Assembly: GCA_903813345.2 (NCBI GenBank)
Contig: CAIIXF020000005.1
Span: forward strand, 2,854,001 to 2,918,000
Direction of reading: 5' to 3'
From: Owenia fusiformis
Taxonomy: Eukaryota > Annelida > Polychaeta > Sabellida > Oweniidae
Length of the DNA stretch: 64,000 nt
The notes beneath the pieces were generated by a model. It saw only the letters and a list, made by a program, of their open reading frames with translations. It made no database searches and was not told the origin of the DNA. Positions within the stretch are counted from its first letter, which is position 1. Each line of letters opens with the position of its first letter. A program made the translations under genes and the position numbers. Below, one piece after another: positions 1 through 61,529 of the stretch.

Positions 1-99
1 CGCAAACTGCATCATGGGAAATATTTTGTCCTTATAAGGAAAGATTTTCGCGTCTCCTCTTTTGAAGAGGGAACAACGATTTCGAGAATTAAAACAAAG

Positions 100-540
100 G
101 CCAAATACTTAGATATTTACTTTTGACCTTGATATGACCTTGATTCATAAACACTGACCTTGACCTCAGGTCACCTAATCAATAAATACCTAGATACTGA
201 CCGTTGGCCTAGGAATGACATTGACCTCAGGTCACCTTACCCTTGGTTACCAAGGGTCACAGCACGTCCAAAGGAATGACATTTACCTCGGGCTACCTAA
301 TAATGGATGAACAACGGTCATTACAGCCCCCAAATGCATTAAAACGCCAAATACCAAGATATTGATCTATGACCTTTGGATGACCTTGACCAATAAAGTT
401 GACTTTGACCTCAGGTCACTTAATTATGTCAAGGGTCACAGCACAGACCAGGGGTCTTAAAAAGACAAATTCCTAGATATTGACCTTTGACCTTGAGATG
501 ATCCTAACCTCTGACCTTTCATGACCACCGACCCAATTAG
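100..540. repeat. Degenerate repeat rich in TGACCT/AGGTCA half-sites
   Basis: The stretch repeats a theme of 'ccaaatac(c/t)tagatatt', then several 'tgacctt' words, then 'tgacctcaggtcac', at irregular spacing (roughly 60-240 bp). The block TGACCT-C-AGGTCA is exact at 161-174, 222-235 and 406-419, with a decayed version near 280. No coding potential is seen; the short ORF from 562 looks like chance. Confidence 0.6.
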
Positions 541-1243
541 AATGATGACAACGTATACAAGATGAAACTGTCTTGGTGCAGATGTCTGGACAGACAGACC
601 ATTGTGCTTTATAGTAAGAAGATTATGTTGAGAATGTCTCAGTTGTTAAAAAAAACAATTTCATTCTGGATAGTCAGTTTGTATTATGATGAGAAAACGC
701 ACGTAACATTACATCGTGTTCAGAATTCAGTAGGCTATGACAATAACAAATCATTTTTATTTCGAAATTGTACGTTAGATTTCAGTAAAAAATTACGATA
801 GATTTCCGTAGAAACGATTGGTTTGTTAATGGTAGGCTAGGAACCTAAGGCGGGACAATTAAATCGTGAGGAGACAGTCATGCCCAATTTGTTTGCTTGC
901 CAAACGTTGAAAGGAATATAATCGGTAAAAAACGTTGCCTACGATTGACATTCAAAATCGAATTATCAATATTTTAAGGCTACAAATATGGTCGGTATTT
1001 TACATGATATGGTCGGTCTTTTACACATTTTCTCCAAACCCTTTTGATAATCTTCCCAGACTCTCATCGCGTTGCAGTATTAGTATAGGTGTTTCAAATC
1101 GTGAGAAATGCCTCTGCATCTATCATTTGTGAAAATGACGCACTTGGCCCAATCGATTTACTGTATCTCCTCTTTGGTCTCTTTGGTTGTATTGAACTAT
1201 AAGGCATTGACTCTAAAGTATACTAAATAAAATATAGCATAAA
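541..1243. other. Intergenic, nothing recognised
   Basis: AT-rich sequence with only short, compositionally random ORFs. No repeat arm, RNA gene or domain is recognisable. Confidence 0.5.
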
Positions 1244-2509
1244 CACGGTGTTATAGCATGACGGTTACGTCAAGGCAATTTGCAAAATTTTGCGGTAACG
1301 ATAACAAAAAATGGCGGATGGGAAAGGCAGCATGTCCTCTTTCTCATCTGTAGGCAATATTCACAGATAAGATTTCCTTTTAAACTAGTTCCATTCGGTG
1401 ACGTATATATGGATGATTATAAAGACTGGGTCAAATCTGACAGGTGGTCTACAGAATATAAGCTGTAAACCTACCGACTGAGATATCCAAGTTCATAATT
1501 TTTGGTCCATTCTCGTGTTTTCTCAGTACATGTGCCTCAGAGCCACTCAAAATATTATCTGTAAGTAAACTGTGTATAACAAGGCATAAAATGACAAATC
1601 CAGAACAAGAACGTGATGTATATCGTAAATAATAAGGTTTCGAACGCAATGTCGTTAGACGACTACGTATGACTTCTATCGAATTCTATGGACGGTAACG
1701 TATTGTATTTAGTTGTACATACGATATTTAGCGGACGGTTACGTGCCTGTACATCTGTCAAGTCAAGGTTGCTAGATCTGATAGCCTCTTTCCATGTTAT
1801 TGTTATAATAGGTAAGAAATGGAATATTAAATTGCCTATATTTGTTTTCAGGACTCGCAAGAGACGCTCTTGTTTCAGCCTCTATAGGGCAAGGAAAAAA
1901 CTGTCGCTTGCTTTATTTATGAAACCAATGAAAGTGTAAAATATAGCAATGAAGAGGCAAAAGAAAATTAATGATCAAGTACTGATGAAGATGACAAAAT
2001 TAATAACATTGAATCGGGGTTTCATATTTGAATCAGGTTCGCGTAATCGTCCATCAATTTTTTACGTTACCGCAAATTCAAAATACATTATTATGGCTTA
2101 AGTAGAACATATTAGGTGGTTTCCAATGCTCAATTGGCTTTGTATGATCGTATGTAGGTTACATCTATATACCCCAAGGTTTTTAGGCAATGTAGACCAT
2201 GCCCTAAGAACAAAAATAAACAAATTACTAAATTTTTGAATTTCAAACTCACCAATTTTTCTCTTATTTCATGTTATCCCCGGGCATCAAATTGCAAAGA
2301 CTACGTTCAAAATATATACATTACTGAATGCATCACCGAATGCGAAGCTTACATAAATCGTTCATCCTTTCATTGATACACAGTAGTAGAAAATAATGCA
2401 CCAACCTTAGTTTCTCTTCCATCGCGGTCATTTTATTGGATAAATCAGTGAACGTAGCCGTCCAACCTCGTTTTCAGAGGTGGCGTAACCGTCATGCTAT
2501 AACACCGTG
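1244..2509. mobile_element. DNA transposon relic with 26-bp perfect TIRs
   Basis: The sequence starting CACGGTGTTATAGCATGACG at 1244-1269 is repeated as its exact reverse complement at 2484-2509 (26 of 26 bases). The element is flanked on both sides by ATAAA, a possible 5-bp target-site duplication. Subterminal inverted similarity (the word ttgcggtaacg and surroundings) extends inward imperfectly. The 1.27-kb body holds only ORFs under 90 codons on both strands and no transposase is recognisable, so this is a non-autonomous or decayed copy. The superfamily cannot be named from sequence alone. Confidence 0.8.
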
Positions 2510-2698
2510 ATAAAGGGCCACAATGCGTATAAAAGGCTGTGGTGTTTACTTGTATGTCATTGTCTTTGTACTCATGCTATATTTAAAGTATGACAGGATT
2601 CTTTATTCCTTATTTCAAAAATGCCCATGCTATTTTATAATCTCTCTTCCATTCAGATTGCAATAGTCCATTTGTCATTTTCTGAACGTATAAATACT

Positions 2699-2998
2699 TA
2701 AAAGTATGATGTTTTTCTTTGTAAATACTATCATTAGGGATTATTGGAGTGATTTAGCTGGGTTGCCAAAAAATAACTTTGGGGAAAATTTTTGTATCTA
2801 TTACCATGGTAACATACCAGGTATATGGTGGTATCCAAACGCTAAGTCAATAGTCAACGCCATGTTAAGCGATTGCAGCCCTTCCTAATCAGTCTATATC
2901 ATTTTTCCCCAAACAAACTTTTTGGGCAACCCAGTTAAATCACTTCAGAAAACCCTTATTATCATAAATCGACCATAAAACATCGTACTTTTAACAAT
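2699..2998. mobile_element. Palindromic MITE, about 300 bp
   Basis: Left arm (taaaagtatgatgttttt..., 2699 onward) and right arm (ending ...catcgtacttttaa near 2996) are imperfect reverse complements over about 90 bp each. Both arms contain the theme 'ctgggttgcc(a/c)aaaaa'. The short ORF at 2706-2888 lies inside the element and is not a gene. Confidence 0.75.
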
Positions 2999-3062
2999 TT
3001 CTAGGTTCACTATTGGATGTATAGGGGTGACAAATGGACTACAACTGCTTCGTTTTCGATAG

Positions 3063-3182
3063 ATGAACGACCTATTCGGTCCTTGCTTTGTAATTACCGT
3101 CGGCCTGTGCTTTCAACTCGTGCTGAATATCAACGGGACAGCATCTTTTCCATTCAATCGAGGTTGGACCATGCAGCCGGAG
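3063..3182 (+). CDS. Possible first exon encoding a signal peptide (doubtful)
   Basis: The ATG at 3063 opens 40 codons beginning MNDLFGPCFVITVGLCFQLV, which looks like a cleavable signal peptide. The reading ends at a good donor, GAG|GTAAGC at 3182/3183, in phase 0. A second GGTAAGCC lies 14 bp downstream. No partner exon on the plus strand was found, and the next confident plus-strand gene (15.5 kb) has its own signal peptide. A competing 123-codon frame (3017-3388) overlaps. The product is unknown; this is a weak call from signal peptide plus donor only. Confidence 0.25.
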
Positions 3183-3996
3183 GTAAGCCATCCGAAGGTA
3201 AGCCATACAACCAAATTTTGCCGATTCACTCTGACGGAGAATGCCGAGCCTCTCTTTTTGACCAATTAGAGACGTCCTCTTCACATTCGTGGTACCCTCG
3301 GCCTACTTCGTTTGCAAAGAAAGGCTTCGATATCAATATAGTGAATGGCGAAAAATATTACAATCATTCTTTATTCCTAAACTCGTAAACGTTCGCGAGT
3401 CCATAAAAAGGGGCTGGACCGGAGAGACGATTTGTTCGAAAGACTATGCGGATGGTAAAAATATATAAAATACTAAGATGGCTTTCTACATTCAGGTACC
3501 GCTCCCAAAGAAAATTCCCAGAGGAAATATCCTGCTACTCAGGGTATAATATGACAAATTACTTCCTTTTGACATTCCTAAGGCTTTAAGCATTCTGATA
3601 CTCATATAGCATCTTTCTGTTTCACCTGAAACATCTCAGGGCTTAGAAGAAATGAGATGGCATGGTTTATCATGATGAGGCAAAAGTTGTTTAAGTTGGT
3701 TTAAGTTGATTTTATGTAACATTTTACGACTGGAATAAACTTAAGCTTAAGTTAAAAGCATCAATAGAGATACTTGAAACTGGCACTCGCTTTCAAAAAG
3801 TGAAAAATTTCAAAATATATCTTGCCTACCGGGGCTTGCTTCGAGACCACATACTTTAATCAAAGACGCAAAAAATGAAATGTTTAATCGGTATTTAGAC
3901 TATTCTTTAAAAGGTTAAAATAGAAAAACGATCTATTGAAATGCAGGATGTTGCACCATTTGGATTTGTGGATACCCTGTACATCTTATATTGTGT
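3183..3996. other. Intergenic, nothing recognised
   Basis: AT-rich sequence without a recognisable ORF, repeat arm or RNA gene. The last 600 bp of the 123-codon frame above ends at 3388 and shows no domain. Confidence 0.5.
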
Positions 3997-5110
3997 TTTT
4001 CAAAACAGAAGAAACATGTATAAACAGTAAGGCATGTAAATCCGATTCCCTCTGGTAGCATTAGCATTGGTCTCGTATAAGTCGACATACAATTAATTAG
4101 AGAATTTTCGTTATAAGTTGTTTCAAAAACGTATACGTATACTTATAGTTTAAAGGGTCTTGTCGAACTAAAATAAATTCAAATTGATTTTCATAATCTG
4201 TACCAAGTGGGGCATAACTATTCCCGATATAGTCAAGCTCCATCATCAACTAGGGACTGCGAATACAATGTCCTTTGCTAGTGTCAATTATGAACACGAT
4301 AAACTAAACGCTAGTTGACGGGTCCTTGTAGTGTACGATAAACAAGACCCTTAAAAGTGAATCACTACACGAACTAGTCGATCATTTCAAAGTTCTCATG
4401 AAATTATAAGGTCAATTTTTAAGTTTTTACGTATAAAAGGGCCTTTATACGCAGATTATAAACTTACAGAGTTGGATCTCCGCATAGTATATGTGTGGAC
4501 CTACTGACCAGAATGGCTTATTACAATTAATCGGCTGAATAGGCATAGTATCCAATCAAACAGCTCGACTCATTCATTAGCTGAACTAATTCTCCCTTCG
4601 TTATTTCTACAAGGTGATTCAAAACGATCATCTACAAAAAATATATTTGAGAGTAGATAAATCTGTAAAACCCGTGTGCTATATCAGCCTATTTGATTCT
4701 AGAAAACACATATGACACAACTAAGCATGCTTTACATCAAGGGGGTACGGATGGTATGCCATTGGCCCTTTTTATTACCGTCGTAGGAGATATTTCCCGA
4801 CGAATTAGGAAATTATGAAACACCTGTTTATTGGGTTTATAAGTATAAGTATACGTATAAGTTTTAACGAAAATTCTCTAATATTTGAAACCCAACTATT
4901 ATTCAAACTTATGATCGGACATAAGTATGATGTGTTCTTCAATGTAATATTTATAAAGTAACATCATACTTATGACTGATCATAAGTTCGAATGATATTT
5001 ATATTTCAAATATTAATTGTATGACATGTATGAGACCAATATTAATGCTACCAGAGGGAATCTGACCTGCAAGCCTTACTTTTTATACATGTTTTTTTCT
5101 GTTTTGAAAA
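3997..5110. mobile_element. Inverted-repeat DNA element, 1.1 kb, interrupted by a second element
   Basis: Left arm 3997-~4160 starts ttttcaaaacag and includes 'ttccctctggtagcatta'. The right arm is its reverse complement, ending ctgttttgaaaa at 5110. The arms also share 'tagagaattttcgtta' and the 'gtatacgtatacttata' stretch. The right arm is split by the nested element at about 4881-5013, so the arms match only once that insert is removed. There is no transposase ORF. It is a non-autonomous element. Confidence 0.75.
4881..5013. mobile_element. Nested 133-bp palindromic MITE
   Basis: Begins atatttgaaa and ends tttcaaatat. Its arms share 'aacttatgatc' and 'cataagtatgatg' in inverted orientation around a short loop near 4945. 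It interrupts the right arm of the surrounding element between 'ctcta' and 'taattg', where the left arm (reverse complemented) reads uninterrupted. Confidence 0.7.
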
Positions 5111-6020
5111 ATTCGATATGTGTTGTTTACTTCTTGGTTTTTCAAATATATCTACAAATATTTCATTATGGTTTTATCTTTACATCGTAACTTCGATCAC
5201 CGTCATCACTTTTCGAATGAGTTACCTTAAAATATCAAGACGACATGCTATTCTCATACTTATAGAACTCAATGTAACTGTCCTTGACTATTTATTAAGC
5301 AGTAAAAAATAATTTGCTTCATGGGTTACAAAATGTTTCTACTTTCCTGGTGAATGTCGAGTCTCGAATCATACGAATGTAATTTTAGGCGACCTGTCTG
5401 CATGGGATGCATACGTTTTGTTGTTTAATTGGTTTAGTTTGCATATCTTATTTTTCATAGACATACCTCAAAATGAGTTTCTTTCCTTGCTTGTAATACA
5501 TACATGTTGTTGGATCGCAAGAGTACAAACGCTGCTTCACTAATCTGAATCTTCGAAGCTGAATAATAGAATATAATGATGGTTAACAACACTTGGATAA
5601 TTAATAGAATATTTTATTTCAATTAATTGTCCGTAATTAGGGGTTAAACAGACTGTTTTCGGAACAAAGTCAGAAATAACCGCCCTATTATTTACCTGGA
5701 ACGCCCAAAAACGAATCCGTTTTAAACTGCCATACCAAGAAACATGTCTAAAGATGTTAGATCAATCTTAAACAATTACAGACAACATTTTATGACCGAT
5801 TAAAAGGATGCCCACAAAACTAATTGATTAAACACTAGAATACCAAGAAATATTCCTAAGCCAAGATTTTGGAACGAAAAAGTCAAAACTGCAGATTTAA
5901 AATATTACTGGAAATTTTGTCCAACGATTCGCTTGGAGTGGAAAAATGTAGACAAAATTGTTTTGGGCGCTCACCTACCCGCAAACTTATCACAATATAA
6001 AGAATTTACGGTACCTTTAC
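5111..6020. other. Downstream flank of the cyclase-like gene; last exon not found
   Basis: The expected minus-strand exon(s) encoding the end of the cyclase domain should lie here or further left. I saw no convincing match to the usual C-terminal segment. AT-rich, with short ORFs only. Confidence 0.4.
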
Positions 6021-9000
6021 CCGTGGACTCCATGAGGGACGCAGTTGTGACGGTATCTCCAAACAAACAATAGCGAGGCATCTTGAAGCCTACCACTCCA
6101 GCAACACATGCCCCTGAATTTATAAAATTGTGAACTTCAACAGGAATTCAAAATGAAAAATCGCCACATTTATTGAGCGGTAGGCTAATCGCAAAGGCAC
6201 ACAGCACTATTTTCTTAATACGATCAGCACTCGATTACGCAGGGTTTCGGTAACAAAATGTCGGAACATCGAAGGTACGATTTTTCTTTTTTCCTTATTT
6301 CACACGTTGTAGGCAGAATTCCCACAACATTTTTATCACAAACGTGTATCAGTATCATATGTTTAAAGGTCGAGTGATATTAACACATTTGAACATGTTG
6401 AACAACTAATATACATACTTTTGGCTTGGTTGAATGGCTATGACTCCCAAGTTCTGATTTGTCTCATCAAGAAGATAATTGAGCGAAAGGGATTATGTCA
6501 ATCGGAGTTTAAAATTTTTGTGCAAAATTTCTTCTTGAATCGAAAAAATTCATTTTAGTTCGATTAATTTACGATAGGTGGCAAAAGGTCTAAAGGTAGA
6601 TCACGTCACGCAAAACAACGAATCATATGACACGAAAACAATGAATCATACGCCAGATGGCGTAGTGAAAGGAGGTCAATTTCACGACGGTTGAAGATTA
6701 CAGTAGAGTTTCCCATAGGTGGCCATTATAACATTTTACCCTGTATCTTATTAACGACTAGTATCCAAGCCTAGTGCAACATACCACTGTGTTCGGGAGA
6801 GACTCGTCTAGCCTGCTATAACAATCTTATAATTGGTTGTCCACCGAATTTTTGAGATAAATAAACTTGAAGACACTAACCCCCTCTATCGTCAGATTTC
6901 TCAGAGAATTATGGTAAAATCACCGAGGTCAAAATCACTCCGCCGCCAGCTTAAAATGAGATTTCCCACTGAACTTTGACATGTTTTCAGATAAATCAGG
7001 ACCTACCTTATAAATATTTAGTCCCAATTCACTTCCCAAACGCCAGATGGCGCTCCAATGGGGTAGGAAAGGAGAAAAAATGACTTTTTATACAGAAAAC
7101 CAAATCACTAATCACTCAGGACTATATCCGACAAACGAAAACCGTTTAGCTCAGCTTCAATTTTGCTCTCGCAGTCGAACGAAACCGAAACTTCTTTCGT
7201 GAATGGATGTTGACCCTTTGAAACGCCCATGGACTTGGAGACTGGATTTTATCTATCCCACATCATTTGAGACTGAATGCTCTATCTTGTATGAGTACTT
7301 GTATCTACAACAGTTTTTGAGGTTATGAGTATTGGCTATCAATTGGCTATCAATTTTTAATTTTTTTTTTCTTCAACATGTATTGTAATGACTTTAGTAT
7401 GAATGAAATGTCCCTTGGTCTTCTGGTCTTGGATTGTGATATTCATTCTTGAATGGTGGGGGGAAAGGGGGTATTAGACATTGTTTCTTTTCACGTTAGA
7501 TCATGGTTTTGGGCTATATGGGTTTTGTTTTTCTTGACTGGTATGCACTTAGAGTTTGCTTTTTCTTGCTAAGTTCCATTACAACTTTTGGTCCTTTCCC
7601 TTTGGCACTAGTGCTTATATATTTAGGTTAGTTATTTTTGTCAGGCTCCGGTATTTTGACAAAATTAAGTTCAGGTCATAGCCACTCCTCGGGGCAGGTT
7701 TGAGGCACCAACGATTTATTTTGGGGGTTATCTAAGGAATTATTCCCGAATTCCGGCTACTGCGCCTTTAAGGAAATGCACTTATTTGCGAACAAATAGT
7801 TCAGAAGACAACAGAATCGTCGATTTAATTTCTCACTTAAGTTACAGAAACGGTATTTCGAAAAACAGTTAAGACCTAACTGATCCTGATATGTTCAATG
7901 GTTCATTATGACAAATCAATTTCCATACATAAAAATCCATACGTGCCTGAATGAAAACCACTCCGTAGTACAAGATGTCTGTCCACCATATGCGGCACTA
8001 CTATGTTAGCAACGGAGTCGACGAGGGTAAGCGCCATTGTAGCAATCTCCGTTACGTGGTTTACCGCATTGAGCTCTGGAACTCCAGATGCCACCATAAA
8101 TGATGCATCCCCTGAAAGTATACATACAGTTGTGACAAAATTGTCATGTATCTATATCACTCCAGTCAGTTTTATTAGTTCCACATATCATTTACATGAC
8201 CAGGAAAACAATGGGCATGGTGAGAACAAATGACCTTAAACACGCTGAAATCGTTATTTCAGCCATCTGAAATTGTTCGGAAATGTCAACGAACAGAATT
8301 TTTTGAATTTTTCAGAAAATATGCCCAATTTATTGCTTTAAATGATAAGGGCTTTGAAAAATTGTCTGAAACAAAAATGGCGGTGATAAAAAGGAAAATA
8401 GATCGCTTTTCAAATCAGATGTTTTCCTTTTTCTATTTCTAGGAATGTTTCATAGATCCGTAGCTCAAAAATACCGTATAGTACAGTACTGTGGCGAAAT
8501 TAACTGATTTAATGATTGAAGCAAAAACTACGACGAAAAAGCGACATATATAATACTTCAACTTTCTAATTACGATAACAGTTTTTTTTCTGAGTGAATT
8601 CGCCTAGCTGCCGCCTAAGAGTATGGGTTATTTTCATGAGAATATATATATTGAAGGACGGTTGAAGATTTAGCAAATAATCATTCATTGTGTATATTAA
8701 CAAACAGATCTGTACGTTGACGCATCAACTGTATGTTGACAATGACAATGGAATTCATGAGATGTAATATAAAGAACTCAGTATTTACTTCAAAACATCA
8801 CACAAGAGGAGGGGGAAACCCTAAAGCTCAGAGATGACCTCAGGATCACCCCTCTTGTTTTTTTTGCAATGATGAAACAGATTCGAATGAGTGCTTCATT
8901 TATGTCATGTCACTCACCTATAGTGTCAACCTTATAAACATCATACATTTCCATCTTTGCGTCCAATGTCTGGTGTAGCTTATTCAGCATAACTATCACC

Positions 9001-11919
9001 TGGTGGGCTGTACTATGAGCTGCGATATCTTTGAAACCAACAATACTACCAAAGTAAATCGTGCAATGGTCGAAACTTTCAGGCTTGATCGGCTGGTGAT
9101 TTTTCAATCTATCAGCGACTGTTCTTGGCAGCATTCGATACAACATAAAGTCGGTTACTCTTCTCTCTGCGCTCAGGTCTTCTGTTTTCTCTTTTAAAAC
9201 TGAGGCGACGTTTTGAATGTCGACTGTCATTTTGTGAATCAATAATAAAACAGTCGGGCATAGAATGCAAATTCCGATGAGGATGAGGACATTGACGACT
9301 ATTGTAGTGATAGAGTCTTTCGCTTCCTTTTCTAATGTTACAACTATCTCGTGCGCAAGATCATCTTGAATGATCCCGAGATAATTGATTAACTTAGTCA
9401 TATTTTGGAACCAGTATGTTCCCATCTGTACACGCGGTCCAGTAATATTGCTTAAAGTTATGTCTTTTCTCATGGATGCTATTTCAATTGCAGCTGTCGT
9501 TTTCATAAATTGCTGCTCAAATCGAGAGGCAACGAGGGGATAATATTCTGTGCACGTTTTAAAATATGTTGCGGCCATCTCTTTCTTTTTCACGTATGAA
9601 AGAAGTCGTTCCTTGTCAAATCCACCTAAAAACGAAAATATTATTAGCTCAGTACAAGCTATCATGTACGAATTAACCAGAAATCTCTAATTCAGAATTT
9701 AGGATATTGACCCAAAAACCTGACACTTTCACAGCTTCCAACTTACAGTTCAGATGTAATATAATTATATTTTGATAGGTTGAAAAGAAAAAATTTTAGG
9801 ACGAAAATTCGAAAATGGCCACCTTAAAACCTACACCAATAATGCCCAAAATACAGAGTAACCTTTCTTCGGCCGTTTTTGGATTTTCAATCATAGAATC
9901 TAATACACGAACATGAATATGAAATATTTTCTTCAGGTTTCAAGCAAAAAATGTGTCGCTATGATTCTATGGAATGTTTTTGTCCTTACAAAAATGAAAT
10001 GAACCCGATTTTAGGATCCATTTGTCCCTTTCCTACATCATATATGCAATTATTTCCGAATTTTATTTGTGAATGCTACATCAACATTTTATTTCAGGAA
10101 CTATTATTAATAACAGATAATGAAGCAGTCGTGACGCTATGTTATTCTAGTTTCAAATTACTTTTGTTAATTACTAATTAAAATCCACTGCTGTAGTTCA
10201 ACGGTACAGCGTGTAGCCGTGTACCTGCACTAGATCTTGGGTTCAATCACGGTTCGGGCAAGATTAATTTGCTGGTTGCGTAAAAAACTCCAGGATGTTT
10301 GACTGAGTGGGCAATAACTCTGTGGTGTGTAGTTGTACGCCTATGCAGTATGAGTGCACATAAGGAAATAAAGAGCTCCTTGAAAGAACGTTTTCTGGGT
10401 TTGTCTTCCAGGATTACTTGTGTAAATTACTTGCACTCGTAAAAATTGTTACTTGGATTTCCGTATATTGAGAAATTGTACTACTCATTTTAAGTCAAAA
10501 ATTACTTAAATAATCTTGAACTACTGAATAATTTTTAAGTAATTTTTAAGTAATTCGTTTATGGTGAATTTACTAATGCACGGAGAGAAATTGAAATACT
10601 TACTGTAGTAATTGTAATACTAATTTACATAATTAAGCAATTAAATAACTCAAAATGACAATATAAGTTAAACCTGAGTAAAATGAAGTAAAACTAAGTA
10701 TTTAACTTTAAGTAATTTTTATACTTGGGAAAAAATTGGGAAATACTCAAGTAATTCATTTTTAAGAGTGTGGATGTAAATAAAATGCAATACAAGAATA
10801 CAACATCATGTGAGACCAGTACCCACGGTACTATTCATATTTTGTATACAGGACAAAAAACCTTCAAGGAATATCCTAACCATTGCTTATGGTTTCTTTC
10901 AATATTAAAATAATTACACCGCTATGTATGAACATGTAATTCAGATTAAGTCATTTGCCTGTTGAATTCCATTTTAAAAGTGGAATTTCAAAACTTAATT
11001 TTTCAAAACTCTACACGATAAAAATTGCATATTAGGTAGTTACAGTTGTTGTTAAATGGCCATGGCGTTAAAAGACAGAATAATTATCGTGGGGATTTAT
11101 TTGTGGTGATGATTATAAAATTATAGTATAGACAAAAATTTTATAAAACGACTGCATGGTCAGAGCAATAGTAAAACTATAATATTCACCAGCTGCAAAA
11201 TAAGAAGATCCTAAAGCCCTCTCCACTCCAGTTTGTTCTTTGCTTAACACTAACATGTGGTAGGCAACCAGCGTTTTCCAAATCGGTGCGTCCTTTGTCG
11301 CGTTTACACTTATCCCGACCCACTTCAGCAATTCGTCGATGATATTCGAATAAAATGCGATGGTATCTGTAATGGTAACATTCTTGTCGATTGCCACTCG
11401 TGCCCTGAAGCTTTGAATATAGGACTGCAGAGCTTCGACATTTTTAAAGTGATCCGTTGAAGATGACGATAGCCAGGACTGTCCCCTTAAATGATGATCC
11501 AAACCCGCATCGGTTTCACGATATGTTGACATCAGTCGTTCACTCAGAGAAGTACTTTTGTTAGAGCTCAGGAAGAAAACCGAAATCCCTCGCTCAAGTT
11601 GTAACAGATGGACGACTTGACCAGTTTCTGTTGAGAACACGACATTACCACGAACGCTATCTTTGTTAGCTTTATCATTAAATCCATCAAGCATAATGAC
11701 AAACGTTTGTGAGGCCAATACAATGATAGGCAGGACTACCAGAAGCATCATCCGTACGACTTGTATCGTTCTTCCCCTCTTGGTAATGGGATCACTTGGA
11801 ACCCCGCAACACATCGTCTCACTCAGTCTTATACTGGATCGTCTACTTCCAGAGGTTGCTTTAGCACCATCTTGAAATATCTTGGTCATAGGAACAATTT
11901 GTCGTGCGTTTCTATTCAT
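6021..11919 (-). CDS. NIT-domain receptor guanylate-cyclase-like protein, probably catalytically dead (3' end missing)
   Basis: Four minus-strand exons join in frame: 11190-11919, 8918-9625, 7947-8111 and 6021-6113, all ending in phase 1 (566 residues so far). Order: cytoplasmic N-terminus; TM1 about 55-77; extracellular NIT (nitrate/nitrite-sensing type) domain with [12 protein letters not shown], to about 340; TM2 about 349-373; a HNOBA-like linker ([11 protein letters not shown]); then a class III cyclase domain. The family makes cGMP from GTP at the plasma membrane; NIT-type cyclases occur in marine invertebrates. Here the first metal Asp is Ser437 (YFGSIVGF, normally SDIVGF). The transition-state Asn and Arg of NTASRMES are Thr557 and Leu561 (TTASLMES). 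The second metal Asp481 and guanine-selecting Cys550 remain, and the usual Glu of VETIGD is Asp. No stop or frameshift is seen, so a pseudoenzyme is more likely than a dead gene. The intron after 7947 appears to be GC-AG. The terminal exon was not located. Confidence 0.88.
10188..10392 (+). mobile_element. tRNA-derived SINE
   Basis: Lies in the first intron of the cyclase-like gene. A pol III A box, TAGTTCAACGG (10194-10204), and B box, GGTTCAATCAC (10240-10250), stand at tRNA-like spacing. The flanks do not fold into an acceptor stem, so it is not a working tRNA gene. A tRNA-unrelated body follows to about 10390. The family is not identified. Confidence 0.7.
10434..10770. mobile_element. AT-rich MITE in intron 1 of the cyclase-like gene
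   Basis: The left end, cactcgtaaaaattgttact, and the reverse complement of the right end, cactcttaaaaatgaattac, are near matches. Between them lies AT-rich sequence repeating 'aagtaatttt' and 'tacttaa' words in both orientations. No ORF. Confidence 0.6.
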
Positions 11920-15515: not shown

Positions 15516-17185
15516 ATGGGATTCATGCGAGGGGTTATTTTTCTGGTTCTTGTAACATTTCAAAACCTGGACCCTACTGATGCTGTTGCAATATTGACAC
15601 CTCCGAGGTTCGATCATGGTATTGCCGGCTTAGATACAGATCGCCCCCTGATCGTGGCGCACAGAGGCAGTTCGGGGATGCTTCCAGAGCACACTGTGGC
15701 TGCATACGAGCTGGCGGTTAGACAAGGCGCCGACGTACTTGAATGTGACATGTGTCTTACCAAAGACCTTAGGATAGTATGTCTACACGAAAGCTGGATC
15801 AAATCTGCAACTGATGTTGAGAGTAAACCAGAGTTTGCAAATAGGAAGGTAACGAAGATTCACTAAAGCCTCAGTCATATTTGTTCGGTGATCGATACTA
15901 ACAGAAAATCTACATATATTTTATGCTGCATTTTTTCTCTTGACTTTAAAGTTACGGCCGCCGTGCGCGTATACAGTTGCCGTAGATCAAATCTGACTAA
16001 GGCATTAAATCTTATCGTCATAGTTACGTACGACTTGATTTATTTACTACTCGTTAGGGTTAATTTAAAGGAAAAATGAATGGAAAGAGTAGCTACCGCT
16101 AAAATGGGTGACAAGCGATTGTAATCGGTGGTGCCATTATGATTTAAAAGGTGTTAATATGACACATGATATTGAAGTTCATGTGTAATCTCAATTGAAT
16201 AATTGCGCAACCTCTCAATGGACTTCTCAGCATTCCTAGTTGGAATCAATGACGCCATTGCTCCGTTAACAATCAGAAAATAAGTATTCATGGTTTAAAC
16301 AATTTTTAATCTCCTTTATTGCAGACAACGAGATTGGTTGGCCTGACACATGTAGTTGATAACTGGTTCTCCGTTGACTTTACATTGAACGAACTGAAAA
16401 CGCTTAGAAAGAAGCAACAACGTTCATACCGGGACAAAAATTTTGACTTGCAATTTCCAATACCAACACTGCAGGAAATGATAGACGTCAGCAAAAACGC
16501 ATCCAGGGTGATCGCCATCCATGTAGAAACCAAAGATCCAGATTGGGTTAACAGTTTAGATATTGTTGAGAATGCGAATACAACATTTGAGGACCTCTTA
16601 GTTGACGAGTTGGAAAGGAATGGATATACTGAAAAAAATTCCCCCGTGTTTCTACAATCTTTTAGTTTAGACAGTATAGAATATTTGGCCAACAGAACTA
16701 AAGTCCCACTCGTGCTCCTGTTAGCAGCCTTTAATGCTACGGATGGGGAGCTGAGGGAATGGTCCACGTATATGTACGGTATAGGGCCCTCCAAATCCCT
16801 AATAGTGTATGGGAAAGACCCTTTAGGTGGCAGCAAACAGCCGATAGGTGGAGTAAGTAACTTGGTGGCCCGAGCGCATGCGCATGGACTGAAGGTACAC
16901 ACGTATACACTCAGAAACGAAGATCGTTTCTTGTTATGGGATTATGGTCAAGATCCGTATCAAGAATACGAGAAACTCCTTTCAGTTGGTATAGATGGCA
17001 TGTTTACCGATTTTCCATTAACTATGAAACGATATCTTGATGGAGTTTATAATAAAACGGCACCCCAACCAACGACCACGTGCCCACCAACCTCCGGAGG
17101 TCAAACATTGAACTCTCATATATCATATATGTATTATTATATAACATATGCTGCCATGGTTGCTTCATACGTTAACACTTCATAA
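15516..17185 (+). CDS. Secreted or GPI-anchored glycerophosphodiester phosphodiesterase
   Basis: Two exons, 15516-15848 and 16325-17185, join in phase 0 (AAG|GTAACG, TTGCAG|) to give 397 residues. GlpQ/GDPD enzymes hydrolyse glycerophosphodiesters to glycerol-3-phosphate and an alcohol on a TIM barrel. The N-terminus (MGFMRGVIFLVLVTF) is a signal peptide. The signature follows: AHRGSSGMLPEHTVAAYELA, the metal pair in VLECDM, and CLHES, the second catalytic His. Exon 2 has IAIHVETK, supplying the conserved later Glu, and ends GIDGMFTDFP, the usual last strand. A proline/threonine stretch and a hydrophobic tail (YMYYYITYAAMVASYV) suggest a GPI-anchor signal. The first ATG was chosen over an upstream GTG in the same frame. 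All key residues are intact. Convergent with the sulfotransferase gene. Confidence 0.92.
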
Positions 17186-17474: not shown

Positions 17475-18707
17475 TTAACGAGAATACACGTTAACTGCAA
17501 AATTAGATGGGAGTTGTGTTTTGACATGCAATGTATAATCTAATCGTTCCAAATGGGGTTTAATTTCGACATAGTTAGATATCTTCTTGCTTAATGACAT
17601 TGGGTTTTGCTTCAGCAACCATGTGAATAGATGTCTTCTTTCTTCTCTGTATCCAAGCATTTTAAACACACCATTCATCGTTTTGCTATTATCAACAACC
17701 AAATCTTCATAGCTAACAAGAATGTAATCGTTGCCCCGAATATACCGATTTCTCCTCAGTAATTTCATTAACTTAAGCCAGAGAATTCTCTCTGTAAGTA
17801 TAAAGTGCTCGAATTGATTTAATCTGAGTTTGTGCGAGATTGTGTTTTGTATATCTGTAGACCACCAGAGTCTGGTTTCGGCCGCTATCTGCCAGCTGAC
17901 GTACTGTTCTAACAAGTTCTTCCTGTAGAGTAATATTAACTTTGGCCTCTTCAGTTTTCTTAGAAAAGATTCCATGGTGATGTTAAATTTGATCATCTGA
18001 CTTAAATGCACTTTGAATCCTGTTGAAATCATGCTTGATAAACCAGCATTAGTACCAAACCTTGTTTTTGTGGCACTGGTGGAGCCAGGGAAATCTGTTC
18101 GGGAATTTGTTCTAGGTTCAGTAGTACTGGCAAAACCTATGATGTCTCCAACATAGTTCAATAGCTGTGACCTGGATGATTTATTGGATAGATTGAACTG
18201 GCTGAGTATTGGTTGCATGATGAGTTCATTGTAACACGTCACCAGTGGGTGCTGGTTGAGATATGAATCCATCAAGTTTGAACCACAACGAGGCTGTGTT
18301 ACAACTATGAAATGCTGTTTAACTTTATTGTAATTCGCCTCGATGTGAGTTTTCCGATAATTATCCCGATAGGTCGAAGACTGGTTATTTATTTGTGCAC
18401 CAGTTCGATCTTTGAAATCGTTAACTATGCTATTTGTTTTCTTATAGCCATAATTAAACCTGTTGCCAATCGTCGTATCACGTTCAAATACATGTATGTG
18501 TAGACCAGATTTGTTTTGACGGTCAATCGCCTCATTTCCTTCCCCATACGGACGTAACTCACCATAATGGAATCGACGTCCATCTATCAATGCGAAAACC
18601 GAGCTTGTATCAACATCGAACCTTACTATAGCAACTATGGTAATGATCACACATGTCACACATATACTTGTAAATGCGAGGTACTCCAATCTTGATCTCA
18701 TCTTCAT
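17475..18707 (-). CDS. Type II membrane sulfotransferase (Stf0/NodH-like)
   Basis: A single-exon frame of 410 residues from the ATG at 18707 (MKMRSRLEYLAF). The same frame stays open upstream to 18842, but the later Met puts a membrane anchor (about 11-28, CVTCVIITIVAIV) right at the N-terminus, as in Golgi sulfotransferases. A stem region of about 100 residues has several N-glycosylation sequons. The 5'-phosphosulfate loop is VVTQPRCGSNLMDSYLNQHP (about 135-154). The 3'-phosphate motif is LILLYRKNLLEQYVSWQIA (about 257-275), with the conserved Arg and Ser. PAPS is the expected donor; the acceptor (probably a glycan) cannot be told. The YRKNLLEQYVSW form resembles bacterial Stf0/NodH-type enzymes and their animal relatives. 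No frameshift; appears functional. Confidence 0.85.
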   Translation of the reverse strand: MKMRSRLEYLAFTSICVTCVIITIVAIVRFDVDTSSVFALIDGRRFHYGELRPYGEGNEAIDRQNKSGLHIHVFERDTTIGNRFNYGYKKTNSIVNDFKDRTGAQINNQSSTYRDNYRKTHIEANYNKVKQHFIVVTQPRCGSNLMDSYLNQHPLVTCYNELIMQPILSQFNLSNKSSRSQLLNYVGDIIGFASTTEPRTNSRTDFPGSTSATKTRFGTNAGLSSMISTGFKVHLSQMIKFNITMESFLRKLKRPKLILLYRKNLLEQYVSWQIAAETRLWWSTDIQNTISHKLRLNQFEHFILTERILWLKLMKLLRRNRYIRGNDYILVSYEDLVVDNSKTMNGVFKMLGYREERRHLFTWLLKQNPMSLSKKISNYVEIKPHLERLDYTLHVKTQLPSNFAVNVYSR

Positions 18708-19854
18708 TCGCTTGCCTACTAGTGTAACATGTGATTCCAATAAAGTTACAGGATGCTTGAATGTACATGTAATGCAGTGTATGTTTAAATGAATTAAATG
18801 ATTCAAACAGCAAATACATCTTTTAATCCACATTAGCCACATATATAAGCCTTAGATATATACTTACTGTGATCATAGCGACGAACATATTTAGGAGGTG
18901 TCCGTTATTGAAATGTTTAAGATTATAGGGGTTGGCAATTTGCAATGCAAGAAAGTCTACGCTAAAATTCCACAATGATCCAAGACTTGGATAATATCGT
19001 TATTAATATTACTGCTATGCTTCTCATTAATATTAACCATCAACCTACACAAATAAATCGAAATGAATTTGGGGTAGTTAACCTTTGAAATGATGCACAC
19101 ACAACGTGTGTAAACGAAGTCTGAAAATCATCAATCTTTGACATTTTTTCAAAATCATCGACATACAGACAAATACAGTCCTGTAAGAGGCATACAGACA
19201 GGTAACATCAAAATATACTTTAATATGTTGCCTAAACCAATAATTGCATCACAGTATTAGTTTGAATGGCTTTATTTATCCCTATGATATATCAAAACAC
19301 TCTTGGCATTGACTGCTGAATCTCAGAGTGTAATCGTGTTATCCGACCTCTTTTTGATGAATCCCCTATAATACTCTTCAGCTCTCTTTGTTTCGAAGGG
19401 CAACACGGAGCGTTTGGAAGTACGTCAGAATTGGACGTACATGTGACCGGGTATTGTTCACGTTAAAGATACAGACCCCTTTATTCACCAATAGTGAAGG
19501 TTAGGGGTCTGAAAGGGGCGGAGGGGAGCAAGGACCTGAATAAGAACTATTAAAAGTAGAACACCTTACATTTTCACCCATCCAAGTACTGGGGTAGCTC
19601 GCAGCTATCATAATTCGGCTGCAAACAACTTTAGTCATTAGATATGTTAGCTGTGACTATGCATATTGACATGCCCGTGTTGGGATATACATTACTTTTT
19701 ACACATTCCCTTACAAACTTTTTACTTTATCCTCCAATTGCATGTGTTCATATCTTCACAGCCACATGTTATGAAAAATAAGTTAAACATTAATTATCAG
19801 AGACCTAATTGGTTAATATATTCCAGCCTTGTTTTTATAGGATACCTATTATTA
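18708..19854. other. Upstream region of the sulfotransferase gene
   Basis: A possible 5' UTR splice acceptor (acactag on the minus strand) lies just before the ATG at 18707. Beyond that only AT-rich sequence and short ORFs are seen. Confidence 0.4.
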
Positions 19855-20174: not shown

Positions 20175-23100
20175 TAAGTAAGATCAGGAGTAAATCTCCA
20201 TGAATAGAATATTAAGACGCGTCGTGTAATTATTGTATTGAGTAAGAGGAGTAAAAATCCAAGAGTAGAATAATTAAAGGTGTGATATGAACATTGTATT
20301 GAGTAGAAGAAGGAGTAAATCTCCATGAGTAGAATATTTAGATGCGTGATGTAAACATTGTATTGAGTAAGAGAAGGAGTAAATCTCTCCACGAGTGTGA
20401 TATAAACATTGTATTGAGTAAGAGAAGGAGTAAATATCCAAGAGTAGAATATTAAGGCGCGTGATGTAAACATTGTATTGAGTAAGAGAAGGAGTAAATC
20501 TCTCCATGAGCGTGATATAAACATCGTATTGAGTAAGAGAAGGAGTAAATATCCAAGAGTAGAATATTTAGGCGCATGATGTAAACATTGTATTGAGTAA
20601 GAGAAGGAGTAAATATCCAAGAGTAGAATATTTAGGCGCGTGATGTAAACATTGTATTGAGTAAGAGAAGGAGTAAATCTCCATGAGTAGAATATTTAGA
20701 TGCGTGATGTAAACATTGTATTGAGTAAGAGAAGGAGTAAATCTCTCCACGAGTGTGATATAAACATTGTATTGAGTAAGAGAAGGAGTAAATATCCAAG
20801 AGTAGAATATTAAGGCGCGTGATATAAACATTGTATTGAGTAAGAGAAGGAGTAAATCTCTCCACGAGTGTGATATAAACATCGTATTGAGTAAGAGAAG
20901 GAGTAAATATCCAAGAGTAGAATATTTAGGCGCATGATGTAAACATTGTATTGAGTAAGAGAAGGAGTAAATATCCAAGAGTAGAATATTTAGGCGCGTG
21001 ATGTAAACAGTGTATTGAGTAAGAGAATGAGTAAATCTCCATGAGTAGAATATTTAGATGCGTGATGTAAACATTGTATTGAGTAAGAGAAGGAGTAAAT
21101 CTCTCCACGAGTGTGATATAAACATTGTATTGAGTAAGAGAAGGAGTAAATCTCCATGAGTAAAATATTTAGACGCGTTATATAAACATTGTATTGAGTA
21201 AGAGAAGGAGTAAATCTCTCCATGAGCGTGATATAAACATCGTATTGAGTAAGAGAGGGAGTAAATATCCAAGAGTAGAATATTTAGGCGCATGATGTAA
21301 ACATTGTATTGAGTAAGAGAAGGAGTAAATATCCATGAGTAGAATATTTAGATGCGTGATGTAAACATTGTATTGAGTAAGAGAAGGCATAAATCTCTCC
21401 ACGAGTGTGATATAAACATTGTATTGAGTAAGAGAAGGAGTAAATATCCAAGAGTAGAATATTAAGGCGCGTGATGTAAACATTGTATTGAGTAAGAGAA
21501 GGAGTAAATCTCTCCATGAGCGTGATATAAACATCGTATTGAGTAAGAGAGGGAGTAAATATCCAAGAGTAGAATATTTAGGCGCATGATGTAAACATTG
21601 TATTGAGTAAGAGAAGGAGTAAATATCCAAGAGTAGAATATTTAGGCGCGTGATGTAAACATTGTATTGAGTAAGAGAAGGAATAAATCTCTCCATGAGC
21701 GTGATATAAACATTGTATTGAGTAAGATAAGGAGTAAATATCCAAGAGTAGAATATTTAGGCGCGTGATGTAAACATTGTATTGAGTAAGAGAAGGAGTA
21801 AATATCCAAGAGTAGAACATTTGGGCGCTTGATGTAAACATTGTATTGAGTAAGAGAAGGAGTAAATATCCAAGAGTAGAACATTTAGGCGCGTGATGTA
21901 AACATTGTATTGAGTAAGAGAAGGAGTAAATCTCCATGAGTAAAATATTTAGACGCGTTATATAAACATTGTATTGAGTAAGAGAAGGAGTAAATCTCCA
22001 TGAATAGAATATTTAGACGTATGATGTAAACATTGTATAGAGTAAGAGAATGAGTAAATCTTCATGAATAGAATATTTAGACTTGTAATTTAAACATTGT
22101 ATTGAGTAAGAGCAGGAGTAAATCTCCATGAATAGAATATTTAGACGCGTGATGTAAACATTGTATAGAGTAAGAGAATGAGTAAATCTTCATGAATATA
22201 ATATTTAGACTTGTAATTTAAACATTGTATTGAGTAAGAGAAGGAGTAAATATCCAAGAATAGAATATTTAGACACGTGATGTAAACATTGTATTGAGTA
22301 AGAGGAGTAAATATCCAAGAATAGAATATTTAGGCGTATGATGTAAACATTGTATTGAGTAAGAGACGGAGTAAATATCCATGAATAGAATATTTAGACG
22401 TGTGATGTAAACATTGTATAGAGTAAGAGAATGAGTAAATCTTCATGAATAGAATATTTAGACTTGTAATTTAAACATTGTATTGAGTAAGAGAAGGAAT
22501 AAATCTCTCCATGAGCGTGATATAAACATTGTATTGAGTAAGAGAATGAGTAAATCTCCATGAATAGAATATTCAGACTTGTAATTTAAACATTGTATTG
22601 AGTAAGAGAAGGAGTAAATATCCAAGAATAGAATATTTAGACGTGTGATGTGAACATTGTATTGAGTAATAGAAGGAATAAATCTCTCCATGAGCGTGAT
22701 ATAAACATTGTATTGAGTAAGAGAATGAGTAAATCTCCATGAATAGAATATTTAGACGTATGATGTAAACATTGTATAGAGTAAGAGAATGAGAATATCT
22801 CCATGAATAGAATATTTAGACGTGTGATGTGAACATTGTATAGCGTAAGAGAATAAGTAAATCTTCATGAATAGAATATCTAGACTTGTAATTTAAACAT
22901 TGTATTGAGTAAGAGAAGGAGTAAATCTCCATGAATAGAATATTTAGACGTATAATGTAAACATTGTATAGAGTAAGAGAATGAGTAAATCTTCATGAAT
23001 AGAATATTAAGATTTGTAATTTAAACATTGTATTGAGTAAGAGAAGGAGTAAATCTCCATGAATAGAATATTTAGACGCGTGATGTAAACATTGTATAGA

Positions 23101-26095
23101 GTAAAAAAACGAGTAAATCTTCATGAATAGAATATTTAGACTTGTAATTTAAACATTGTATTGAGTAAGAGAAGGAGTAAATCTCCATGAATAGAATATT
23201 TAGATGCGTGATGTAAACATTGTATAGAGTAAGAGAACGAGTAAATCTTCATGAATAGAATATTTAGTCTTGTAATTTAAACATTGTATTGAGTAAGAGA
23301 AGGAGTAAATATCCAAGAATATAATATTTAGACGTGTGATGTAAACATTGTATAGAGTAAGAGAATGAGTAAATCTTCATGAATAGAATATTTAGACTTG
23401 TAATTTAAACATTGTATGGAGTAAGAGAAGGAGTAAATCTCCATGAATAGAATATTTAGACGCGTGATGTAAACATTGTATAGAGTAAGAGAACGAGTAA
23501 ATCTTCATGAATATAATATTTAGACTTGTAATTTAAACATTGTATTGAGTAAGAGAAGGAGTAAATATCCAAGAATAGAATATTTAGACGTGTGATGTGA
23601 ACATTGCATTGAGTAGGAGAACGAGTAAATCTTCATGAATAGAATATTTAGACTTGTAATTTAAACATTGTATTGAGTAAGAGAAGGAGTAAATATCCAA
23701 GAATAGAATATTTAGACACGTGATGTAAACATTGTATTGAGTAAGAGGAGTAAATATCCAAGAATAGAATATTTAGACGTGTGATGTGAACATTGTATTG
23801 AGTAAGAGAAGGAATAAATCTCTCCATGAGCGTGATATAAACATTGTATTGAGTAAGAGAATGAGTAAATCTCCATGAATAGAATATTTAGACGTATGAT
23901 GTAAACATTGTATAGAGTAAGAGAATGAGAATATCTCCATGAATAGAATATTTAGACGTGTGATGTGAACATTGTATAGCGTAAGAGAATGAGTAAATCT
24001 TCATGAATAGAATATCTAGACTTGTAATTTAAACATTGTATTGAGTAAGAGAAGGAGTAAATCTCCATGAATAGAATATTTAGACGTATAATGTAAACAT
24101 TGTATAGAGTAAGAGATTGAGTAAATCTTCATGAATAGAATATTAAGATTTGTAATTTAAACATTGTATTGAGTAAGAGAAGGAGTAAATCTCCATGAAT
24201 AGAATATTTAGACGCGTGATGTAAACATTGTATAGAGTAAAAAAACGAGTAAATCTTCATGAATAGAATATTTAGACTTGTAATTTAAACATTGTATTGA
24301 GTAAGAGAAGGAGTAAATCTCCATGAATAGAATATTTAGACGCGTGATGTAAACATTGTATAGAGTAAGAGAACGAGTAAATCTTCATGAATAGAATATT
24401 TAGTCTTGTAATTTAAACATTGTATTGAGTAAGAGAAGGAGTAAATATCCAAGAATATAATATTTAGACGTGTGATGTAAACATTGTATAGAGTAAGAGA
24501 ATGAGTAAATCTTCATGAATAGAATATTTAGACTTGTAATTTAAACATTGTATGGAGTAAGAGAAGGAGTAAATCTCCATGAATAGAATATTTAGACGCG
24601 TGATGTAAACATTGTATAGAGTAAGAGAACGAGTAAATCTTCATGAATATAATATTTAGACTTGTAATTTAAACATTGTATTGAGTAAGAGAAGGAGTAA
24701 ATATCCAAGAATAGAATATTTAGACGTGTGATGTGAACATTGCATTGAGTAGGAGAACGAGTAAATCTTCATGAATAGAATATTTAGACTTGTAATTTAA
24801 ACATTGTATTGAGTAAGAGAAGGAGTAAATATCCAAGAATAGAATATTTAGACACGTGATGTAAACATTGTATTGAGTAAGAGGAGTAAATATCCAAGAG
24901 TAGAATATTTAGGCGTGTGATGTAAACATTGTATTGAGTAAGAGACGGAGTAAATATCCATGAATAGAATATTTAGACGCGTGATGTAAACATTGTATAG
25001 AGTAAGAGAACGAGTAAATCTTCATGAATAGAATATTTAGACTTGTAATTTAAACATTGTATTGAGTAAGAGAAGGAGTAAATATCCAAGAATAGAATAT
25101 TTAGACGTGTGATGTGAACATTGTATTGAGTAAGAGAAGGAATAAATCTCTCCATGAGCGTGATATAAACATTGTATTGAGTAAGAGAATGAGTAAATCT
25201 CCATGAATAGAATATTTAGACGTATGATGTAAACATTGTATAGAGAAGAGAATGAGTAAATCTCCATGAATAGTATATTTAGACGTGTGATGTGAACATT
25301 GTATAGAGTAAGAGAAGGAATAAATCTTCATGAATAGAATATTTAGACTTGTAATTTAAACATTGTATTGAGTAAGAGAAGGAGTAAATCTCCATGAATA
25401 GAATATTTAGACGTATAATGTAAACATTGTATAGAGTAAGAGAATGAGTAAATCTTCATGAATAGAATATTTAGATTTGTAATTTAAACATTGTATTGAG
25501 TAAGAGAAGAAGTAAATCTCCATGAATAGAATATTTAGACGTATGATGTAAACATTGTATAGAGTAAGAGAATGAGTAAATCTTCATGAATAGAATATTT
25601 AGATTTGTAATTTAAACATTGTATTGAGTAAGAGAAGGAGTAAATCTCCATGAATAGAATATTTAGACGCGTGATGTAAACATTGTATAGAGTAAAAAAA
25701 CGAGTAAATCTTCATGAATAGAATATTTAGACTTGTAATTTAAACATTGTATTGAGTAAGAGCAGGAGTAAATCTCCATGAATAGAATATTTAGACGCGT
25801 GATGTAAACATTGTATAGAGTAAAAAAACGAGTAAATCTTCATGAATAGAATATTTAGACTTGTAATTTAAACATTGTATTGAGTAAGAGAAGGAGTAAT
25901 TATCCAAGAATAGAATATTTAGACACGTGATGTAAACATTGTATTGAGTAAGAGGAGTGAATATCCAAGAGTAGAATAATATTTAGGCGCATGATGTAAA
26001 CATTGTATTGAGTAAGAGATTGAGTAAATATCCATGAATAGAATAATATTTAGACACGTGATATAAATATTATTGAGCAAGAGAAGAAGTAAATT
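20175..26095. repeat. 64-bp minisatellite, about 5.9 kb, with higher-order structure
   Basis: Roughly 90-100 head-to-tail units built on 'cattgtattgagtaagagaa', 'ggagtaaat' and 'agaatatttaga'. Unit length is 64 bp, with a shorter 51-bp variant (tctctccatgag type). From 20.27 to 21.2 kb the units form a 358-bp higher-order repeat (four 64-bp plus two 51-bp), seen as identical frames starting at 20274, 20632 and 20990. All minus-strand ORFs in this span are by-products of the repeat. Confidence 0.95.
22624..24895. repeat. Two tandem 1,136-bp blocks within the minisatellite
   Basis: Diagnostic variants recur at one offset: 'tagcgtaagag' at 22841 and 23977, and 'tttagacacg' at 23711 and 24847, both 1,136 bp apart. 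The intervening variant order is the same, so about 18 units were duplicated as a single block. Confidence 0.8.
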
Positions 26096-45847: not shown

Positions 45848-45999
45848 GTTATACTTATTTTAAGGCCTAAACTGCATCATCACTTTCCCCAAGACTAGAA
45901 GCTAAGTATGCCAGACATTACATTTTACTTGTATTAAGGAAATCATTCCACTAACATTGCCTCGTTGTTATATGTTGTACTTTACAAATATGTTTTCAG

Positions 46000-61065: not shown

Positions 61066-61529
61066 CATGAAAACAACTTAGGAAATTTTCAGTGTAAATT
61101 ATTGGAATTTTATACAGAGACTGTTTGTGGTGATGTTAGATAAAGTGTTTTATTTGGGAGTGCGTGCACTACAATTTTATTTCATATACAAGAATAATAG
61201 GACATTGAAATAGATGCATGACTTTGCAACAGGGATTCTGACTTACATATGGATTACATAAACTGTCATTCATCTTTGGAACAATAATGAATATTTTCAA
61301 TTTAATGTAGAAAACATCATTTTAGCAACTTGATTCTGTTGTATAAACCTCAGCTTGGATGCCATCTTTAACACCAACAGTATACATGAATATAAATGTT
61401 ATACCAAAATATTTTAAATATCTTGTTCTTTCTAATTCTATAAGCATGATACTAACAGTGAAATCAATGTTTTTAACTGATACATTTGTAAAAAGCTTTT
61501 TGATATTGCTGTTTCAAAAGCATGATATA
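61066..61529 (+). other. 3' UTR and flank of ATP5MK
   Basis: No canonical signal is obvious right after the stop. The sequence is AT-rich and non-coding up to the satellite. Confidence 0.5.

Follow-up and report, generated by a model that had tools for sequence, protein, structure and literature searches.

The window, a 64,000-nucleotide stretch of Owenia fusiformis DNA, carries on its minus strand a gene of six exons whose joined frame is open and encodes a protein of 635 amino acids. The protein comprises a putative transmembrane (TM) stretch, a NIT domain, a second putative TM stretch, a linker and a cyclase domain (TM–NIT–TM–linker–cyclase). The parts of the gene, in the order in which they are read, are as follows.

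11190-11919, minus strand: exon 1, with the N-terminus, the first TM stretch and the first half of the NIT domain, including the arginine motifs LQLERG and GVERALG (open frame, GT donor, Pfam NIT match and alignment with NasR 4AKK).
8918-9625, minus strand: exon 2, with the second half of the NIT domain, the second TM stretch, the linker and the start of the cyclase domain.
7947-8111, minus strand: exon 3, with GDASFMV, in which the second metal Asp is kept and is followed by one inserted residue; the splice donor is GC.
6015-6113, minus strand: exon 4, in which the base Cys is kept, the catalytic Asn is Thr and the catalytic Arg is Leu.
5467-5558, minus strand: exon 5, SKIQISEAAFVLL...RKETHFE, with Glu at the position of the triphosphate Lys.
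1-5466, minus strand: part of the last intron (about 13.5 kb).
C5:2845986-2845873, minus strand, about 8 kb past position 1 and outside the window: exon 6 with the stop, GSNLKTWWLISKEG...QQVKD.

The preliminary description had placed the gene at 6021-9625. That interval does contain the residues to which it drew attention, but as a gene it covers exons 2-4 only, and exons 1, 5 and 6 complete the 635-residue frame. Exon 6 was located through homology between the two paralogues L001 and L002, and then past the window edge. Exon 4 most likely ends at 6015, since this end restores the canonical length of the ESTGKA..KI stretch. Exon 2 carries YFGSIVGFK, where the first metal-binding Asp (Asp1) is replaced by Ser, and YKVDTIG, where the base Glu is replaced by Asp; the motif VDTIGDAS spans the junction of exons 2 and 3. 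All junctions are GT-AG except for the GC donor of exon 3 (window position 7947). L001 has GT at this donor, but L002 has the same GC, which makes a genuine splice site by far the likeliest interpretation. A frame or splice artefact at exon 3 was considered and rejected on the same ground.

Alternative exons were sought in two ways. With five canonical queries on both strands, C5:2845000-2868000 yielded no alternative cyclase exon restoring the canonical residues; the single extra match in this region (E about 0.6) contains a stop and corresponds to something other than the cyclase domain. A restoring exon was also absent among the listed genome-wide matches of the window protein (69 of 175 candidates scored), and the listed matches in its own region are the six exons themselves.

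Pfam finds the NIT domain (PF08376; 121.7 bits against a cut-off of 24.9, E 8.5e-35) and, at the C-terminus, a class III cyclase domain (Guanylate_cyc, PF00211; 172.1 bits against a cut-off of 21.9) that covers positions 2-182 of 183. A weak HNOBA match over the linker (residues 377-417, 22.9 bits) falls just below its cut-off of 23.4, and one more sub-threshold match was taken for chance. Two hydrophobic stretches, read by eye, lie at the expected places around the NIT domain. No kinase domain was found in the window protein with Pfam at E 0.001. Given the open frame and a NIT match of this strength, the receptor part is preserved, as had been proposed.

A search of solved structures at E up to 10 yields a single relative of the NIT domain, NasR (4AKK; E 1.8e-7 with a profile of seven of the 12 NIT domains in the genome), with which the motifs LQxERG and GxERALG align. 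NasR is a bacterial nitrate regulatory protein, a soluble RNA-binding antiterminator, whereas the window protein is a predicted membrane receptor. The window protein, L001 and L002 all retain the two NIT arginines, which we take to be the ones implicated in ligand binding. In the accessible text of PMC7400543, a pair of conserved arginines at the NIT interface is described as the presumed binding site of the ligand.

Compared with the other NIT cyclases and with NPR1, the cyclase domain of the window protein has Ser for Asp1, Thr for Asn and Leu for Arg. These three replacements had been reported in the preliminary description and are present on the minus strand, together with departures that it did not list: the triphosphate Lys is Glu, GFT has become GFK, the base Glu is Asp, and one residue is inserted beside the second Asp, where it could alter the fold. 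The metal-binding Asp pair is incomplete (the first is Ser, the second is kept), and in the catalytic half Asn, Arg and the triphosphate Lys read Thr, Leu and Glu. Adenylyl cyclase serves here as the model for the roles of Asp1 and of the triphosphate Lys. The second Asp and the base-selecting Cys do remain, as described earlier, and both are also retained in L001 and L002, while the base Glu is retained in two of the three copies.

Pfam recognizes 12 NIT loci in the genome (15 candidates scored). L001 (contig position C5:38.3 Mb) and L002 (C1:25.04 Mb) are 69% and 86% identical to the window protein over their full length, and the three genes group in one clade with support of 100/100, whether the tree is built from the linker plus cyclase part (16 rows) or from full-length sequences (12 rows); both trees have long branches elsewhere. 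In the order window protein, L001 and L002, the replacements are S/T/S at Asp1, T/R/T at Asn and L/I/F at Arg; the triphosphate Lys is Glu in the window protein and L002 and is kept in L001. The C-terminal tail is shorter in L002. Because Asp1, Asn and Arg are missing throughout one shared clade, the loss most simply predates the duplications, and a single loss in the common ancestor of the three copies would be the simplest account.

We then read these changes against known nucleotide contacts. In the homology model quoted in the available portion of PMC3955944, each GTP touches both monomers; nucleotide contacts, whether direct or by way of another residue, are assigned to Glu, Cys, Thr, the second Asp, Asn and Arg, the Thr being counted as a ribose contact. 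The numbering of the NPR1 chain in our alignment fits the numbering in that portion. Of the 11 natriuretic receptor contacts to GTP and Mg given there, the window protein keeps seven and changes four (Thr, Glu, Asn and Arg), and it keeps all seven of the cyclase-domain residues reported there to abolish activity when mutated to Ala. With these residues in place GTP binding may survive; judged from its sequence, the nucleotide pocket is damaged, not erased. The changes are not confined to catalytic residues, as 10 of 46 other invariant columns are altered too. Catalytic sites show a marginal excess of changes in the window gene (p 0.016-0.098 across cut-offs), a weaker one in L002 (p 0.078-0.335) and none in L001 (p 0.27-0.72).

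A pocket in this state could belong to a receptor that signals on its own as a non-catalytic homodimer, in which ligand would rearrange a dead cyclase dimer acting as a docking, scaffold or nucleotide-binding module, for example on a channel, with no active partner. The cyclase fold is conserved here without the full chemistry, the base Cys and the second Asp are found in all three copies, and the 7 of 11 contacts kept in the window protein (on the list in the available portion of PMC3955944) make some nucleotide binding possible. According to the text available from PMC4595086, NPR-A with the equivalent Asp mutation keeps an effect on TRPC3/C6 channels. In this lineage, however, the link to a channel is conjecture, and on balance we consider the homodimer rather unlikely. 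The retained residues could also mean that the proteins still work as cyclases, at a very low level or through an unusual chemistry: the second Asp and the base Cys are present in all three, the base Glu in two of the three, and the window protein keeps 7 of 7 Ala-sensitive residues (those in the same portion of PMC3955944). Set against this are the loss of Asn and Arg from the catalytic half and of Asp1 from the metal half, and the loss of the Thr that the model counts as a ribose contact, and residual catalysis is improbable.

To place the clade among the cyclases of the genome, we read both half-sites in 44 cyclase domains among the matches listed, 12 of them at NIT loci and 32 elsewhere. 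For the latter, exons were paired by contig, order and proximity and only Asp1, Asn and Arg were scored; L017 and L018 are provisionally counted here. Among the matches listed, 25 of the 44 domains retain all three residues, seven have lost only Asp1, six have lost Asn and Arg but kept Asp1, and three have lost only Arg. The remaining three of the 44, which have lost all of Asp1, Asn and Arg, are the window gene, L001 and L002. The six domains without Asn and Arg look like halves of the adenylyl cyclase C1 or soluble cyclase alpha type; these labels, like the C2 label used below, are provisional. All 13 asymmetric domains keep either Asp1 or Asn plus Arg, and among the matches listed this rule is broken only by the window clade. 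Since the loss is shared with two paralogues and is otherwise absent among the 44 listed domains, it is more than chance.

These counts also bear on whether the window protein might be the complementing half of an obligate heterodimer, like DAF-11/ODR-1, the alpha and beta chains of soluble guanylyl cyclase or the C1 and C2 domains of adenylyl cyclase. Asymmetric loss is common in this genome (seven domains without Asp1 only and six without Asn and Arg only, of the 44 listed), and DAF-11/ODR-1 is a known receptor case (PMC5225109, in the text available). Such halves, however, keep Asp1 or else Asn and Arg, and the three proteins here keep neither, which makes a complementing role quite improbable.

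The substitutes themselves partly resemble those of non-catalytic halves. Ser at Asp1 in the window gene and L002 matches three adenylyl C2-type domains of the same genome, and Thr at Asn in the same two genes matches four of the six C1-type or sGC-alpha-type domains; L001 instead has Thr at Asp1 and Arg at Asn. Among the matches listed, 2 of 34 metal-Asp exons were left unpaired (L026 and L046), both with Asp, as were 17 of 49 Asn/Arg exons, all 17 with Asn kept; two of these have a replaced Arg, with Ala in L091 and with Lys in L072. Guanylyl-type exons in which Asn is kept and Arg replaced were seen at L089 (contig position C2:32.68 Mb; Met), L055 (C1:13.05 Mb; Thr) and L091 (C1:50.51 Mb; Ala).

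Six of the other nine NIT loci are canonical at Asp1, Asn and Arg; Asn and Arg are kept in eight of the nine and Asp1 in seven. Gene models for these loci were homology-guided, the motifs themselves being read directly by tblastn; L003 and L005 have no resolved last exon, with Lys unread in both, and the L005 model contains a gap. Only Asp1 is lost, with Asn, Arg and Lys kept, in L007 (Asp1 is Asn; C1:25006000-25010300) and L009 (Asp1 is Arg; C7:22836000-22840500), and each of these two might serve as the complementing half of a heterodimer. The distance between L007 and the dead paralogue L002 is about 24 kb. In L010/L011 (C3:22535600-22550000) the half-site loss is of the reverse type, with Asp1 and Asn kept and Leu in place of Arg. 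At the receptor end, the second NIT arginine is lost in five of the other nine loci (L006, L008, L009, L010 and L012), each of which keeps at least six of the seven scored cyclase residues. These five possibly have a changed ligand, as a mirror image of the dead clade.

Selection on the three copies was estimated as dN/dS by the Nei-Gojobori method, with 95% bounds from 500 codon bootstraps; values are given in the order window-L002, window-L001 and L002-L001. The cyclase domain gave 0.13 (0.08-0.21), 0.21 (0.13-0.32) and 0.22 (0.14-0.34), the NIT ectodomain 0.16 (0.10-0.25), 0.34 (0.24-0.47) and 0.39 (0.27-0.55), and TM2 plus linker 0.16 (0.05-0.42), 0.22 (0.10-0.44) and 0.38 (0.20-0.76). The YN00 and maximum-likelihood estimators gave 0.13-0.24 for the cyclase part, YN00 returning no estimate in 2 of 15 comparisons. 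The cyclase domain of the three copies, like the linker and the NIT domain, is under purifying selection, and this is no looser than that on the receptor part. A comparison of this kind between the two parts had been proposed in the preliminary description, and it comes out at 0.13–0.22 for the cyclase (upper bounds ≤0.34) and 0.16–0.39 for the receptor. If the loss is ancestral, the differences between the three copies arose after it.

Constraint on the dead domain may nevertheless be somewhat relaxed, with dN/dS up to about twice that of the comparison pairs L010/L012 and L003/L005 (cyclase 0.10 each), of which L010/L012 is an imperfect active control in that L010 itself lacks Arg. Pairs with L006, mostly saturated, and L004/L009, saturated or nearly so (cyclase 0.12 at dS 2.3), were left out. 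Of the 51 cyclase columns that are invariant in the other nine NIT cyclases, 36 stay unchanged in all three copies, where a column was counted only if filled in at least seven of the nine. A recently dead gene on its way to becoming a pseudogene is very improbable, and a pseudogene was rejected on the open frames and dN/dS: drift at several invariant positions, the differing replacements that the copies carry where residues were lost and the shorter C-terminal tail of L002 would fit such a gene, but the three frames are open, the splice sites are kept with a shared GC donor, and dN/dS is below 1 in the NIT, TM2-linker and cyclase parts (upper bounds 0.21-0.76).

Key catalytic residues are gone and the domain is conserved by selection, and on sequence grounds pseudoenzyme status is well supported. 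The earlier suggestion of a receptor pseudoenzyme gains from the purifying selection on the cyclase domain across three copies that share the loss; such a protein may act as a dimer partner, a decoy or a non-catalytic signaller. As far as alignment can tell, the composite GTP site has lost residues from its metal half and its catalytic half alike in all three copies: Asp1 is missing from the former, where the adjoining Thr is Lys, and Asn and Arg are missing from the latter, as is Lys in two of the copies. Our preferred reading is that the window gene is one of three conserved NIT receptor pseudocyclases and most likely acts as a ligand-dependent inhibitory dimer partner, to which we assign a probability of about 0.5. 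That it is a conserved non-catalytic receptor is very probable; inhibition through heterodimers, the role that we infer, is tentative and falls somewhat short of an even chance. Several results weigh against the preferred reading: the contacts and Ala-sensitive residues that are retained, the spread of changes to non-catalytic columns, the Lys kept in L001, the higher dN/dS than in the comparison pairs, and the residue inserted beside the second Asp.

In this inhibitory role, the protein would sit in the membrane as a dimer, its NIT domain would sense a ligand (nitrate, nitrite or an NO product), and the helical linker would relay the signal to a cyclase domain unable to make cGMP. The two chains of a class III dimer share each GTP site: one contributes the metal Asps, and its partner supplies Asn, Arg and Lys. 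Pairing with an active NIT cyclase would leave the first site without Asp1 and the second without Asn and Arg. With neither site expected to work, cGMP output would be damped, which would make the protein a dominant-negative or titrating partner. Because the losses lie in both half-sites, even an active partner should be unable to complete either GTP site, and from a mixed dimer with two broken sites inhibition would be expected rather than complementation. There is experimental precedent for such an effect: in the accessible part of PMC4595086, a single Asp-to-Ala change in its cyclase domain turns Drosophila Gyc76C into a dominant negative, likely because the dimers that it forms are dead, and a similar NPR mutation is likewise dominant negative. 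Separately, NIT-GC1 of the annelid Platynereis is reported to be required for NO feedback to photoreceptors (PMC10584369, from the text available).

The wider proposal, that the clade is a natural family of ligand-gated dominant-negative receptors in which both half-sites are nulled and any heterodimer with an active receptor would be dead, is possible but doubtful. If it were true, nitrate or NO products could turn cGMP off through one set of receptors and on through another. The NIT cyclase family, asymmetric cyclase pairs and engineered dominant negatives are known already. In the limited literature searched, we found no report of naturally occurring receptor cyclases that form a clade and retain the domain while being damaged in both half-sites.

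The closest known systems differ from the window clade in informative ways. The animal NIT receptor cyclases (placozoan NIT-GCs, Platynereis NIT-GC1 and NIT-GC2) have a NIT domain between two TM stretches and a C-terminal class III cyclase (PMC7400543, accessible text), a layout predicted for the window protein too, but the window clade is without Asp1, Asn and Arg; no dead members are described in that accessible text. In C. elegans, DAF-11/ODR-1 is an obligate heterodimeric receptor cyclase with a single site built from two different chains (PMC5225109, in the part available); its chains complement each other, whereas the window clade has neither half-site complete. The engineered dominant negatives (Gyc76C D945A and the similar NPR mutant; PMC4595086, accessible part) likewise place a dead cyclase on an intact receptor, but theirs is one laboratory change, and those of the window clade are natural, multiple and common to three genes. 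Among solved structures, the closest cyclase domain is that of NPR1 (9bcv and others), which aligns over the whole domain (E 9.1e-47), interrupted by a single-residue insertion and a single-residue gap. The window protein differs from NPR1 in having a NIT domain rather than a peptide-binding ectodomain, and in its lost active-site residues.

Receptor guanylyl cyclases are usually regarded as enzymes, and their best-known non-enzymatic relative in vertebrates, the NPR-C clearance receptor, has no cyclase domain. A whole cyclase domain, kept by selection with both half-sites damaged, would show that the domain has a job apart from catalysis. Canonical NIT cyclases in the same genome would allow a direct test of natural dominant-negative cGMP control and of NO/nitrate sensing.

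Several other features were seen in the window.

16310-17185, plus strand: exon of glycerophosphodiester phosphodiesterase type, which adjoins the next feature.
17475-18851, minus strand: open frame of sulfotransferase type.
20280-26094: tandem array of a 64-bp unit, nearly 6 kb long.
45906-49556, plus strand: long open frame of Sushi repeats (11 stretches matched by Pfam), inside which a 189-bp tandem array with 90% matches lies at 47085-48358.
57723-60419, minus strand: open frame of 898 codons with reverse transcriptase and zf-RVT domains, probably a LINE-type retroelement.
61523-62560: 24-bp tandem array of about 43 copies, with frames open on both strands.
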